This document shows, piece by piece, positions 22,511 through 57,276 of a stretch of DNA of 64,000 bases. The notes beneath the pieces were generated by a model that was not told the origin of the DNA, ran no database searches, and worked only from the letters and a program-made list of their open reading frames with translations. This stretch comes from Desulfobacteraceae bacterium (GTDB lineage Bacteria > Desulfobacterota > Desulfobacteria > Desulfobacterales > JAABSP01), in assembly GCA_011390345.1 (NCBI GenBank), contig JAABSP010000007.1:1-64000 (forward strand), written 5' to 3'. Numbering within the stretch: position 1 is the stretch's first letter; every line of letters starts with the position of its first letter. A program made the translations under genes and the position numbers.

Positions 22511-24481
22511 ATGACGACACTGATCGATATCCGTGAGCGCTGTCCGGAGAAAGTGGTGACGGCAGAGGAGGCCATCGGGAAGATCCGGCAGGGAAGCCGG
22601 GTCTTCCTCGGCTCCGGGTGCGGGGAGCCCCAGCACCTGATCCGGACCCTGGTGGAGAACCGTCAGATGCAGGATATCCTGCTCTACCAGATGATCTCCT
22701 TCACCCTGGCCGACTACATGGATGACGAGGATTTTCTAAAGCGCTTTGCCGTGAAGCTCTTCTTCATCAGCCAGCCCATGCGGAAGGCCGCGTTCGAAGG
22801 GAAGATCGACTATCTCCCGGTCTATCTCTCGGAGATCCCCCAACTCTTCGACAGCAACCAGATCGGCTTGGAGGCCGCGCTGGTGCAGGTGAGCCCCCCG
22901 GACAAATTCGGCTACTGCAGCCTCGGGGTTTCGGTGGATGTGACCAAGCCGGGAGCAAAGAACGCACGATCCATCATCGCGCAGGTCAATCCGAGGATGC
23001 CCCGCACCTGGGGAGACTCCTTTCTCCATATGGATGAGATCGACTACTTGGTCCCGTATGAGGAGCAGCTCGTGCAGGCGATCCCCTCCATCCCGGACGA
23101 GACCGTGGCGCGGCGGATCGGCTTCTACGTCTCGGAGCTGGTGGAGGATGGCGCGACGCTTCAGATCGGCTTCGGCCGGCTCCCCTATGTGATCCTCGGC
23201 TGCCTCATGGACAAGAAGGAGCTGGGCATCCATACCCAGATGATCACGGACGCCTTTATTCCCCTCTTCGAAAAGGGGGTGATCACCAATACCCGGAAGA
23301 ATTTCCTGCCGGAGAAGGCGGTCGCCACCATCTGCATGGGATCGGACAGACTCTACGAATATCTGGATGACAACCCGCGCTTCTATCTCCGGTCCTCTGA
23401 TTTCGTCAATGATCCCGCGGTCGCGGCCCAAAACGACAACCTCATCTCCATCAGCTCGGCTCTGGAGGTGGACCTGACTGGCCAGGTCTGCTCCGATTCC
23501 GTGGGCCATCTCTTCTACAGCGGCATCGGGGATCAGGCCAACTTCATCCGGGGGGCCTCCATGTCCAAAGGTGGTTTCTCGATCATCGCGCTCCCCTCCA
23601 CGGCCAAAGGGGGAACCGTCTCCCGGATCGTCCCCAATCTGAGCGAGGGCGCGGGAGTGGCCACACTGCGGGGGGATGTCAACTATGTGGTGACGGAGTA
23701 CGGGATCGCGCAACTGCGGGGAAAGAGCATCTATCAGCGGGTCATCGAGCTGGCGCAGATCGCACACCCTAATTTCCGAAAGGAGCTGATCGAGGCGGCC
23801 AAGCGGTACCACTACATCTTTGTGGATCAGAAAGCTCCCCATGAGGAGGATCTCCTCTTCTTGGAGAAGTACAAGAGCCGGACCACGCTGAAGAACGGCC
23901 GGCGGATATCGGTGCGGCCCCTGTTGCCGGCCGACGAGTTCGCATACAGGAACTTCTTCTATTCCCTGAAAGAGGAGACGATCTACTACCGCTTCTTCCG
24001 GAAGGTCCGGGTCTTTCCCCGGGATGTGGTTCAGCGCCAGTGGGCCAGCGTCGATTACCGGAAGAACATGTCATTGATCGGCCTGGTGCAGAAGAAGGGG
24101 CACAAGGAGATCATGGCCATCGGGACCTACATGGAGGACGAAGAGAACCGGGCCGAGGTGGCCTTTGTGGTTCAGGACGAGTTTCAGGGAGCGGGGGTGG
24201 CCGGCTATCTTATGTGTGAGCTGGAGAAGATCGCAATCGAAAATGGTTACAAGGGCTTTACCGCAACGGTGCTGCCCGAAAACCGTGCCATGATCCATGT
24301 CTTCAAGAAGCGGTATCCGGATGCAAGAACCCAATTCCAGGACGGGGAGATCCGGGTGATCATCGATTTTCCCCAAGAGCGGCTGAATCAGGAGAATCCC
24401 GCGGCATTCGATTCCTGCGGAGATCCGATCATCGGGGAATATCTGAATTGTCCGATACCGCCCGAAAAGCCCGCAGAATAG
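22511..24481 (+). CDS. Acetyl-CoA hydrolase/transferase fused to GNAT acetyltransferase
   Basis: This 656-residue fusion has two parts. Residues about 1-440 are a class I CoA-transferase/acetyl-CoA hydrolase, with the nucleotide-binding-like GSGCGEP loop at the start and the catalytic-region features GIGDQANFIRGA and VVTEYGIAQLRG. Residues about 465-630 are a GNAT fold, including a V-FVVQDEFQGAGVAGYLM acetyl-CoA-binding stretch. The first part would move CoA between acetate or other acids and acyl-CoA. The second could acetylate a protein lysine, possibly the enzyme itself or a metabolic partner. Such fusions are known in deltaproteobacteria. It follows htpX by 24 bp but is functionally unrelated; the operon link is unclear. 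Confidence 0.88.
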   Translation: MTTLIDIRERCPEKVVTAEEAIGKIRQGSRVFLGSGCGEPQHLIRTLVENRQMQDILLYQMISFTLADYMDDEDFLKRFAVKLFFISQPMRKAAFEGKIDYLPVYLSEIPQLFDSNQIGLEAALVQVSPPDKFGYCSLGVSVDVTKPGAKNARSIIAQVNPRMPRTWGDSFLHMDEIDYLVPYEEQLVQAIPSIPDETVARRIGFYVSELVEDGATLQIGFGRLPYVILGCLMDKKELGIHTQMITDAFIPLFEKGVITNTRKNFLPEKAVATICMGSDRLYEYLDDNPRFYLRSSDFVNDPAVAAQNDNLISISSALEVDLTGQVCSDSVGHLFYSGIGDQANFIRGASMSKGGFSIIALPSTAKGGTVSRIVPNLSEGAGVATLRGDVNYVVTEYGIAQLRGKSIYQRVIELAQIAHPNFRKELIEAAKRYHYIFVDQKAPHEEDLLFLEKYKSRTTLKNGRRISVRPLLPADEFAYRNFFYSLKEETIYYRFFRKVRVFPRDVVQRQWASVDYRKNMSLIGLVQKKGHKEIMAIGTYMEDEENRAEVAFVVQDEFQGAGVAGYLMCELEKIAIENGYKGFTATVLPENRAMIHVFKKRYPDARTQFQDGEIRVIIDFPQERLNQENPAAFDSCGDPIIGEYLNCPIPPEKPAE

Positions 24482-24493
24482 GGGATAAAATTC

Positions 24494-24628
24494 ACTCTTG
24501 ACACTCTTTTGCCAAAATCAGGCTAATTGGTTGATTTTGTTTTGATAAAAAATGGACACTCAAATCAGCCCGAAACCCGCATGGATATTGGATTTTGTAT
24601 GTCCATTTTCCAAAACAGTGTCAGGAGT
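24494..24628. repeat. 135-bp nested inverted-repeat element upstream of pyrC
   Basis: Outer arms at 24494-24511 and 24611-24628 are inverted copies matching at 16 of 18 bases (core TGACACT and TTTTG). Just inside, AAAATGGACA (24549-24558) pairs perfectly with TGTCCATTTT (24600-24609). The left side also holds a separate perfect hairpin, CAAAATCA (24513-24520) with TGATTTTG (24532-24539). As RNA it would form a branched structure in the pyrC leader; as DNA it looks like a small MITE-like element. No gene is seen in it. Confidence 0.75.
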
Positions 24629-24663
24629 AAGTAAAAGAGAAGAGAAAGGAAAACAGACCGATC

Positions 24664-25743
24664 ATGCCGACCTTACGCCTTCCTGGGCTGGTGGATGTTC
24701 ATGTCCACATGAGAGATCCGGGCGCGACCCATAAAGAGGACTGGGATACGGGAACGGCCGCGGCACTGGCCGGCGGGATAACCGCAGTTCTGGCCATGCC
24801 CAACACCGCTCCGCCCATTGCCGATGCAGAGAGCTTCGATGGGGCACTGGCGCAGGCCCGGAAAAAGGCCCGGTGCGATTATGCCCAGTTTCTTGGGGCA
24901 GGGCCCGAAACAAAAGGGGCCGTTTTCCATGCAGCAGAAAGGGCTGCGGGTTTGAAGATGTATCTGGATCAGACCTTCGGGCCCTTGCGGCTGGATGAGA
25001 TGACATTATGGGCCGAGGCCATCGAGCAGTGGCCCCGGGATCTGCCCATCGCGATCCATGCTGAAAGCAGAACTCTGGCGGCCGCGGTCCTCATGGCGCA
25101 TCTTTATGACCGGCCTCTGCATCTATGCCATGTCTCCACAAGAGAGGAGATCCTGCTGATCCGAAAGGCAAAGGAGAGAGGCGTTCCCGTCACCTGCGAG
25201 GTCTGCCCCCATCACCTTTTCCTGTCTCAGGCCGATATTCCCCGGATCGGGGAAGGGCGTGCGGAGGTCCGGCCCCGCTTGGCCGCGCCGGAGGATCAGG
25301 CCGCTCTATGGGAGAACCTCGATATCATCGATGTCTTTGCAACGGATCATGCCCCGCATACTCTGGCGGAAAAGGACGGAGAAAATCCGCCGCCCGGTTT
25401 TCCGGGGCTGGAGACCGCTTTGCCGCTTCTCCTTACCGCTGTGGGCGAGGGAAGGTTGACCCTCGAGGATATCATCTCCCGGATGCACGAAAATCCGCGG
25501 CGGATCTTCAATCTCCCGGAACAGCCCCACACCTGGATCGAGGTCGATCCGGATGCGGAATGGGAGATTCGAGGGGAGGCGCAATTGACCCGGTGCGGAT
25601 GGACTCCTTTTGAGGGGAAAAATGTGCGGGGAAAGGTGAAGAAGGTGGTGTTACGGGGAAGCACCGCTTACGAAAACGGAAAAGTGATTGTCCGGACCGG
25701 CTACGGCCGAAACCTCCGGGAAAATCCATCTGAAGAACCTTAG
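24664..25743 (+). CDS. pyrC: Dihydroorotase, CAD-like
   Basis: Dihydroorotase closes carbamoyl aspartate to dihydroorotate in pyrimidine synthesis. This 359-residue protein has all the metal-site residues expected: H13 and H15 (DVHVH), K98 (GLKMYLD), H132 (AIHAES), H156 (LCHVS) and D228 (FATDHAPH). It is short and starts right at the barrel, and from recalled sequence it follows the DHOase domain of animal CAD unusually closely (for example GTAAALAGGIT, PPPGFPGLET, NPRRIF, WTPFEGK). It is followed after 64 bp by pyrB, matching the DHOase-ATCase order in CAD. The leader contains the 135-bp inverted-repeat element. Family is secure; the special closeness to CAD needs a tree. Confidence 0.93.
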   Translation: MPTLRLPGLVDVHVHMRDPGATHKEDWDTGTAAALAGGITAVLAMPNTAPPIADAESFDGALAQARKKARCDYAQFLGAGPETKGAVFHAAERAAGLKMYLDQTFGPLRLDEMTLWAEAIEQWPRDLPIAIHAESRTLAAAVLMAHLYDRPLHLCHVSTREEILLIRKAKERGVPVTCEVCPHHLFLSQADIPRIGEGRAEVRPRLAAPEDQAALWENLDIIDVFATDHAPHTLAEKDGENPPPGFPGLETALPLLLTAVGEGRLTLEDIISRMHENPRRIFNLPEQPHTWIEVDPDAEWEIRGEAQLTRCGWTPFEGKNVRGKVKKVVLRGSTAYENGKVIVRTGYGRNLRENPSEEP

Positions 25744-25807: not shown

Positions 25808-26797
25808 ATGGAGTGTTTACCCGCAAAAGGACCGGTCAGCCCCCATCTCCCCTTCGGGGATCAGCGGAGCGCCCCCTTCTATGGAAAGGACATCCTCTCG
25901 GTCAAGCAGTTCACCCGGGAGGATCTGGAGTACATCTTCGGCGTGGCCCATGAGATGCGGGAGATGGTGGCTAGGGTCGGCTCCTTTGATCTTCTCAAGG
26001 GCAAGATCATGGCCAGCTTGTTTTACGAGCCCTCCACCCGGACATCCTCCTCCTTTCTGTCGGCCATGAAGCGTCTGGGCGGGGATGTGATCCCGATCAA
26101 CGAGGTGCGCTATTCCTCGGTCTCCAAGGGGGAGTCCCTGCCCGATACGGTGCGGACCCTGGAGTGCTATGTGGACGTAATCGTCCTGCGCCATCCCGAG
26201 GTGGGGGCATCAGCGCTCGCGGCCCGGTACGCGCGGAAACCTGTGATCAATGCCGGTGACGGGGTCGGAGAGCATCCGACCCAGGCCCTGCTCGATCTTT
26301 TCACCATCATCGAGGAGCTGGGCCGTGTCCAGGGGCTGACCGTAACGATGCTCGGAGATCTCAAATACGGCAGAACGGTCCATTCTCTGGCCTATCTCCT
26401 CTCGCTTTACGGGGTGAAGATAAATTTCGTCTCGCCGGAGATTTTAAAGATGCCTGCCGACATTTTAAGCCAGATCGAGGAGAAGGAGATCACCGGGGCC
26501 GAGTTCACGGATCTGGACCAGGCTTTGCCCGAGACGGACGTGCTCTATGTGACACGGGTGCAGAAGGAGCGTTTTGAAGATATTGCAGAGTACGAAATCG
26601 TCAAAAATGCCTACACCATCACCCCCGAAACCCTGAAAGCGGCAAAGGAGCAGATGATCATCATGCATCCCCTGCCCCGGGTGGGAGAGATCAGCATCGC
26701 GGTGGATGACGATCCCAGGGCCGCCTATTTCCGGCAGATGGAGTACGGCCTCTATGTCCGGATGGCGCTGCTGGCGATGGTATTGGGAAAGGCTTGA
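25808..26797 (+). CDS. pyrB: Aspartate carbamoyltransferase catalytic chain, CAD-like
   Basis: ATCase joins carbamoyl phosphate and aspartate at the first committed step of pyrimidine synthesis. This 329-residue protein has the carbamoyl phosphate loop S76-T77-R78-T79, the HPTQALLD motif and the HPLPRVGEI motif. A 26-residue N-terminal extension precedes the usual start of the fold. From recalled sequence the body resembles the ATCase domain of eukaryotic CAD, including the end DPRAAYFRQ and RMALLA.VLG. No pyrI regulatory chain is adjacent. AGGAG lies about 11 bp before the ATG. It is probably co-transcribed with pyrC. Confidence 0.95.
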
Positions 26798-55708: not shown

Positions 55709-57276
55709 GTTCTTTTGGGAGTTCATTTGTGAATTCATCGGGCGAAAACGGCAAAACCGGAAAGGTCTATCTCGTCGGCGCAGGCCCCGGTGATCCGGGA
55801 CTCATCACCGTAAAGGGGCTCTCCTGCATTCAGAAGGCCGATGTGATCATCTACGACTATCTGGCCTCTCCGACACTCCTGAAATATGTCTCCCCGGATG
55901 CCGATGCCATCTATGTAGGAAAAAAGGGCGGAGATCACACCCTCTCCCAGGATGGGATCAACGCTCTCATCGTGGAGAAGGCAAAGACCGGTGCGACCGT
56001 CACCCGGCTCAAGGGCGGAGACCCCTACATCTTCGGCCGGGGCGGCGAAGAGGCCGAGGTGCTGGTCGAAAACAACATCCCCTTCGAGGTCGTGCCCGGC
56101 GTCACCTCTGCGGTCGCGGCCCCGGCCTATGCCGGTATTCCCCTGACCCATCGGGACTTTACCTCGACGCTCGCCTTCATCACCGGCCATGAAGACCCCG
56201 CAAAAGAGGAATCGAGCATCCACTGGGAGCATCTGGCCAAGGGGATCGGAACCCTTGTCTTCTTCATGGGGGTGAAAAACCTTCCCAACATCGTTGCCCG
56301 GCTTACCGAAAACAGCATGGCAGAGGATACACCCGTGGCCCTGGTCCGCTGGGGGACCACAACGGAGCAGGTCACGGTATCCGGAACCCTGGAGAACATT
56401 GTCGAACGGGTGAGGGCCGCGGGAATGAAGGCCCCTGCCATCATCGTGGTGGGAAAAGTGGTGGGGCTTCGAGAGAGGCTCGGTTGGTTCGAGCATCGGC
56501 CCCTGCTGGGAAAGCGGATCATCGTCACCCGGGCCCGGGAGCAGGCCAGCGACCTGGTGGAAAAACTGACCGATCTCGGCGCACACTGCATCGAGTGTCC
56601 GACCATCAAAGTCGTTCCCCCGAATGACTGGTCTCTTCTGGATGAAGCCATCCGTAACCTTGCCGATTACGACTGGATCGTCTTCACCAGTGTCAACGGT
56701 GTCCGCTTCTTCTTTGACCGCCTCTTTGAGACCGGATTCGACGCCCGTGCCTTTGGGGGCCTCCGGACCGCGGCCATCGGCCCGGCCACCGCAGGGCGGC
56801 TTTTCGATTTCGGCATCAGAACCGATATCATCCCAGAAACCTTTCGGGCCGAATCGGTGGTTGCGGCATTTGAAAAGGAAGAGATCGCGGGAAAAAAGGT
56901 GCTGCTACCCCGCGCGGCCGAGGCAAGACCTGTGCTGCCCGTGGAACTCCGGAAGATGGGCGCGGCCGTGGATGAGATCATCACCTACCATACCGATCCG
57001 GACACCAGCGGAAGGGAGACCTTGCTCCGGGAATTGGAGGCGGGCCGGGTGGATCTGGTGACCTTCACCAGCTCTTCAACCGTGCGGAATTTCAAATCTC
57101 TTCTTCCTGAAGATGAGGATCTGGCCGGGCTCATGAAAGGCGTTACCGTGGCCTGCATCGGCCCGATCACCGCAGAGACCGCTCAAGAACTCGGTTTTGA
57201 TGTGCATCTGGTGGCAAAAACCTATACCATTGACGGATTGTGCAGCGAGATCAATCAATACTTTCAAAAGGATTGA
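55705..57276 (+). CDS. cobA/hemD: Uroporphyrinogen-III methyltransferase/synthase fusion
   Basis: This 523-residue two-domain enzyme has an SUMT methyltransferase in residues about 18-260 (VYLVGAGPGDPGLITVKG, RLKGGDPYIFGRGGEE) that makes precorrin-2. Residues about 265-520 are HemD uroporphyrinogen-III synthase (RIIVTRAREQASDL, VFTSVNGVRFF, TSSSTVRNF). The fusion closes hydroxymethylbilane to uroporphyrinogen III and steers it to sirohaem, cobalamin or the alternative haem route; it is common in Desulfobacterota and Firmicutes. It overlaps hemC by 4 bp. Confidence 0.96.
   Translation: MSSFGSSFVNSSGENGKTGKVYLVGAGPGDPGLITVKGLSCIQKADVIIYDYLASPTLLKYVSPDADAIYVGKKGGDHTLSQDGINALIVEKAKTGATVTRLKGGDPYIFGRGGEEAEVLVENNIPFEVVPGVTSAVAAPAYAGIPLTHRDFTSTLAFITGHEDPAKEESSIHWEHLAKGIGTLVFFMGVKNLPNIVARLTENSMAEDTPVALVRWGTTTEQVTVSGTLENIVERVRAAGMKAPAIIVVGKVVGLRERLGWFEHRPLLGKRIIVTRAREQASDLVEKLTDLGAHCIECPTIKVVPPNDWSLLDEAIRNLADYDWIVFTSVNGVRFFFDRLFETGFDARAFGGLRTAAIGPATAGRLFDFGIRTDIIPETFRAESVVAAFEKEEIAGKKVLLPRAAEARPVLPVELRKMGAAVDEIITYHTDPDTSGRETLLRELEAGRVDLVTFTSSSTVRNFKSLLPEDEDLAGLMKGVTVACIGPITAETAQELGFDVHLVAKTYTIDGLCSEINQYFQKD

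Follow-up and report, generated by a model that had tools for sequence, protein, structure and literature searches.

A probable MITE inserted in front of pyrC in a Desulfobacteraceae genome

Introduction

The closest known systems to the element described here are the bacterial MITEs RUP of Streptococcus pneumoniae, Correia (also NEMIS) of Neisseria and ERIC of the enterobacteria. According to the passages on them in PMC2229807, these elements are shorter than 200 bp, non-coding and bounded by terminal inverted repeats and target duplications, and long hairpins are predicted for their transcripts; effects on transcripts, through RNase III for Correia and through RNase E for ERIC, are also described in passages of PMC10969869 and PMC2229807. 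As far as those passages go, the element in front of pyrC in the window (the whole 64-kb stretch of DNA analysed) shares with them its size, its non-coding nature, inverted repeats, duplications and predicted hairpin transcripts, and its parent is proposed from shared ends, as was done for RUP and IS630-Spn1. Unlike them, it has ends of the form CWGACTCCTGACA that are not TA-ended, a 5-bp duplication and distinct left and right ends with a AAAATGGACA motif, and its family, with few copies per genome, extends across numerous genera of a single order of sulfate reducers and to Parabeggiatoa.

An initial annotation had offered two readings of this locus, a structured leader that senses a pyrimidine-related signal and a MITE-like mobile piece. 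Our results favor the second and speak against the first: with a probability of roughly 0.94, the stretch in front of pyrC is an inserted MITE that is non-coding and derives from an insertion sequence (IS), of which it keeps only the ends. The element is of an ordinary kind, and the family is new; we found no description of it or of its transposase in the open-access literature, and the matches listed there for TGTCAGGAGT were all off-topic.

Results and discussion

Structure and extent of the element

The inverted repeats of the initial annotation were all recovered: the outer arms match at 16 of 18 bases (24494-24511 with 24611-24628), AAAATGGACA and TGTCCATTTT form a perfect inner 10-bp pair, and CAAAATCA and TGATTTTG form a separate perfect 8-bp hairpin (24513-24520 with 24532-24539). 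A separate inverted-repeat computation returned the outer arms as 23-nt arms with 83% identity. The 135-bp extent did not hold, however, as 3 bp more are needed on each side (Table 1), and outside these widened boundaries lies a 5-bp direct repeat, TAAAA, that is absent from the earlier description. No open reading frame (ORF) of at least 80 aa overlaps the element, which is short and free of a transposase gene, as a MITE must be, and has the terminal inverted repeats of one. A scan of the window for the terminal motif (up to 1 mismatch) gave nothing beyond both element ends and a single further site, at 55875.

Table 1. Positions of the probable MITE, its parts and the neighboring genes in the window.
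Feature	Position	Strand	Basis or remark
Upstream gene, acetyl-CoA hydrolase/transferase with C-terminal GNAT domain	22511-24481	+	
Target-site duplication, left copy TAAAA	24486-24490		Direct repeat, offset rule
Probable MITE, 141 bp	24491-24631	+	5-bp direct repeat and terminal motif common to 12 elements; left end (LE) faces the upstream gene, right end (RE) faces pyrC
Left terminal inverted repeat TTCACTCTTGACACTCTTTTG	24491-24511	+	17/21 match to right repeat
Left-end 8-bp stem-loop CAAAATCA/TGATTTTG	24513-24539	+	Partly kept in related left ends
Subterminal repeat AAAATGGACA, left end	24549-24558	+	Kept in related elements
Subterminal repeat AAAATGGACA, right end	24600-24609	-	Present too at right end of putative parent IS
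Right terminal inverted repeat, read inward CTTACTCCTGACACTGTTTTG	24611-24631	-	
Target-site duplication, right copy TAAAA	24632-24636		Direct repeat, offset rule
Downstream gene, dihydroorotase-like amidohydrolase (pyrC)	24664-25743	+	
Aspartate carbamoyltransferase (pyrB), after pyrC	25808-26797		

Boundaries were drawn from 12 elements with both ends, whose core-to-core lengths range from 76 to 200 bp; in G078 the left end is irregular, and the two ends of this element were paired by eye. In 9 of the 12, 5 bp are exactly repeated in direct orientation at a constant distance from the terminal motif CTGACTCCTGACA. When 11 of the elements were compared with mispaired flanks of different elements, a 5-bp repeat 3 bp outside the core ACTCC was found in 8 of the 11 versus 2 of 110, and the other offsets from 0 to 8 gave no exact 5-bp repeat among these elements. 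The duplicated sequences are TAAAA (window), TTGAA, TTATA, TTTAA, TATTA, TTAGA, TTCAA and ATAAA, with ATAAT in the twelfth element, G037; the C36, C126 and G331 elements have no duplication. HSG8 (L135) offered a further candidate, about 400 bp long, with a poorer right end and no duplication; it was left out of the 12, and its inclusion would give 9 of 13. The fixed offset thus sets the extent of the element in the window, with terminal repeats of the form CWGACTCCTGACA, and the target duplication is 5 bp long and A+T-rich.

In alignments of the related elements, the terminal repeat of the right end is followed by TTT and then by AAAATGGACAT about 24 bases in, and that of the left end by CTTTTG, a stem-loop AAAATCA/TGATTTT (in several members) and AAAATGGACA near base 60; CWGACTCCTGACA is the consensus of the terminal inverted repeat, and both ends carry AAAATGGACA motifs. 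Left and right are thus distinct from each other, and the three arms of the initial annotation correspond to the terminal repeats, the subterminal motifs and a stem in the left end.

From the upstream stop codon (24479-24481) to the pyrC ATG the spacer measures 182 bp, and the gene order downstream is pyrC, pyrB, dnaJ. The element had been said to fill almost the whole of this spacer; it does fill most of it, but its share is about three quarters. From the stop codon there are 4 bases to the first TAAAA and 9 to the element, and subtraction of the element and one TAAAA leaves a spacer of 36 bp. The pyrC genes of three relatives (G001, G002 and G026) have different neighbors or upstream stretches that cannot be aligned and do not show an empty site, and no relative with both flanking genes was found.

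Copies within the genome and related elements elsewhere

The genome that contains the window (4,794,238 bases, or 4.79 Mb, in 199 contigs; 97% complete) was searched for copies, as the initial annotation had suggested as a check on mobility, and the element proved to be multi-copy. The C36 copy is nearly full length (94% over query 15-157), the C25 copy comprises the right half only (99% over query 87-153), the C126 copy covers 49 bases (84% over query 101-149), and C104 holds the right end alone. Next to the C36 copy is a 93-aa ORF that resembles a ParE toxin by eye and has no Pfam match, and another copy adjoins a repeat-containing ORF; the copies are dispersed at unrelated sites, as those of a MITE would be, and the copies examined have unrelated neighbor genes. 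Because the element is multi-copy, the outcome that the initial annotation had named as counting against its proposal, a single copy with no conserved pairing in relatives, is not what we observe.

Relatives extend beyond this genome. The right-end pattern (up to 3 mismatches) occurs in 9 of 389 genomes of the order, and the exact end pattern in 13 stretches of assembled contigs, 11 of which belong to Desulfobacterales or Parabeggiatoa: Desulfamplus (4), Desulfococcaceae HSG8 (2), Desulfobacter latus (1), a Desulfobacterales MAG (1) and Candidatus Parabeggiatoa (3). The two Bacteroidota matches (L090 and L091) lie inside ORFs, look like chance and were rejected. Several contig matches are not independent of the matches in G-numbered genomes, since L083 repeats G040 and L093 repeats G093, both pairs being identical in sequence around the end, and L084/L088 repeat G076, with contigs of identical length. 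A sequence search matched 14 of 146 genomes, mostly through short A+T-rich matches, and on reading we accepted those in the genome of the window, G078, G040 and G093. The 141-bp form aligns end to end with elements of G331 and G040. The element itself had no match in plasmids or phages, and the end pattern had 0 matches in viral contigs. A second terminal class, CTGACACCTGACAC, consisted mostly of runs of CTGACAC heptamers and was dropped; such runs are present in several genomes of the order, for example at L143:6746-7135 (G078).

The reading of the element as mobile is based on the target-site duplication together with the further copies and the related elements of other bacteria, and with copies in its own genome, relatives in other genera and a 5-bp duplication in 9 of 12 elements, the MITE-like piece of the initial annotation is borne out.

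A likely parent insertion sequence

Sequence comparison points to a likely parent, an IS about 1.8 kb long whose right end is that of our element. Against two transposase-bearing elements of Desulfamplus, the right end of our element scores 39 and 39, with shuffle maxima of 23 and 21; the match at the left end is weak, with a score of 25 versus a shuffle maximum of 29, or 24 versus 20 once the first 16 nt are removed. In Desulfamplus nTSbin21 (L085) and nTSbin20 (L089), a transposase-like ORF has its stop codon about 60-75 bp inside the right end, and at another nTSbin21 locus (L100) the other end of the IS adjoins the gene start and has the terminal repeat CTGACTCCTGACAG. Loci of the transposase-like family with element-like ends also include L095, which covers the greater part of a degenerate copy interrupted by a frame break, and L096. 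Pieces of the putative parent are present in two Desulfamplus MAGs, G165, G078, G795 and others; none that we saw was intact, with its two ends and a target duplication, and a parent was likewise not found in plasmids, phages or viral contigs. At L100:1027-1866 the putative parent directly borders an ORF that resembles an ISAzo13-type transposase by eye, an arrangement that looks like an insertion of the putative parent into that ORF.

Homologs of the transposase are rare: searches of the order, of the Desulfamplus family and of a chosen set returned them for 3 of 389, 5 of 86 and 3 of 12 genomes, respectively. In the chosen set, G078, G391 and G392 are the only element-bearing genomes with one, and none was found in G040, G331, G357, G116, G118, G389, G390 or G393. 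The genome of the window gave no homologous transposase in the order-wide, 12-genome or phylum searches; the phylum search with a profile of fragments was empty throughout (0 of 395), a result that shows nothing without a known positive. Since the transposase is missing both here and from 5 of 6 other element-bearing genomes tested in the order, most copies look orphaned. Either the enzyme was lost, or the assemblies missed it, or another enzyme serves.

For the closer transposase proteins, Pfam, NCBIfam and PDB gave nothing convincing, and a distant relative (L159, G816) matches NCBIfam NF033592 transpos_IS4_1 with E 7.2e-06 and 25.3 bits, far under the curated cut-off of 115. The putative parent enzyme has, read by eye, DGH, DRE and (Y..R..E)-like motifs, as do the DDE transposases of the IS4 superfamily; it differs from that superfamily in the sub-cut-off score of its distant relative and in the lack of a convincing match for the closer proteins. 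From this we infer a divergent DDE type, possibly IS4-like. DDE_Tnp_1 (PF01609) genes were also considered as the parent in ten element-bearing genomes, with 30 fetched loci scanned for paired terminal motifs; the scan gave no more than a 4-bp AAAA coincidence, in five copies of G118, and on this evidence the candidate was rejected.

Under the MITE reading, a transposase supplied in trans would bind both ends, and the element would have moved into a TAAAA site just behind the upstream stop codon, expanding the 36-bp spacer to its present length. The outer arms would then be the terminal repeats, the inner arms putative subterminal binding motifs and the hairpin a part of the left end, with the rare IS and its putative DDE-type enzyme as the source of transposase. 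If the flanking genes are co-transcribed, the mRNA would contain a strong hairpin, as for known MITEs, and an effect of the element on pyrC expression is a possibility.

The finding is most probably a mobile-element insertion, and it cautions that a strong fold before a pyr gene should not be taken for a riboswitch. The family ties MITEs in numerous genera of sulfate reducers to a transposase outside the curated libraries searched, and annotators gain from it a pair of ends and a 5-bp duplication rule with which members can be found.

Alternative explanations

One may postulate, although we consider it unlikely, that an element of mobile origin has been domesticated and now acts in RNA processing or stability between co-transcribed genes. 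The 36-bp spacer that remains without the element is compatible with an operon, and passages of PMC10969869 and PMC2229807 describe cleavage of Correia by RNase III and an effect of ERIC on RNase E cleavage. Nothing shows selection at the site, however, and because the target duplication is still perfect, the insertion is not necessarily old.

A structured pyrC mRNA leader sensing a pyrimidine-related signal, as a riboswitch or attenuator, is far less probable, despite its position in front of pyrC and a strong predicted fold. As RNA, 24486-24636 folds at -47.5 kcal/mol (z -5.9), and as DNA at -25.6 (z -4.4), with 0 of 200 shuffles as good in either case. Pairing is kept modestly more often than in shuffles: 85.3% of cells are paired versus 81.3% in 5 related elements, with 12 cells changed on both sides versus 5.6, and 78.7% are paired versus 74.9% in 11 related elements; matched changes are seen at terminal positions 2 and 4, among others. 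These covarying sequences come from dispersed elements and not from pyrC leaders, however, and we did not count this signal in favor of an RNA because one transposase reading both ends gives the same signal. Copies adjoin an acyltransferase gene, the small ParE-like ORF (by eye) and the repeat-containing ORF, and the exact 5-bp duplication likewise speaks against a leader. Rfam gave no match at the gathering score or at E<=1. We found no sigma-70-like promoter, and the single terminator-like site, at 24655-24673, is on the strand opposite to that of pyrC. A look at the same place in relatives, also suggested in the initial annotation, found the terminal motif (up to 2 mismatches) in 0 of 3 stretches upstream of pyrC (350, 211 and 356 bases in G001, G002 and G026), a comparison that is thin since, at E<=1e-40, 36 of 40 genomes had no match and one of the four matches was the genome of the window itself. 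Given the unrelated neighbors of the copies, the three pyrC genes of relatives without the element and the lack of an Rfam match, the pyrimidine-sensing leader is not sustained.

A REP/BIME-type palindrome mobilized by a RAYT, a Y1 transposase, would also be short, dispersed, palindromic and intergenic. This reading is barely credible, as the genome of the window has no PF01797 match (0 of 1, at 97% completeness; 5 of 14 controls were positive) and the element has a 5-bp target duplication, and to our knowledge a fixed duplication of this length is not expected of REP-associated Y1 enzymes.

Outward-facing ends

Read outwards, the terminal repeat is TGTCAGGAGTCWG, with a Shine-Dalgarno-like CAGGAG at both ends of the element. 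This raises the idea, formed post hoc and in our judgment improbable, that the elements belong to an undescribed IS group whose outward CAGGAG gives a ribosome-binding site to genes when inserted before a start codon. An ATG stands 6-7 nt after the core AGGAGT at 5 of 24 element ends (in C36, G331, G357, G118 and Desulfamplus) and 10 nt after it at a sixth, the left end of G040b. Two of the 12 elements, C36 (93 aa) and G331 (with an acyltransferase domain), have an ORF of at least 90 aa that begins 6-7 nt beyond their terminal AGGAGT. At both of these (L034:1378-1797 for C36, L040:1396-2430 for G331) the outward CAGGAGT precedes the start codon by 6-7 nt, as if the element supplied the ribosome-binding site.
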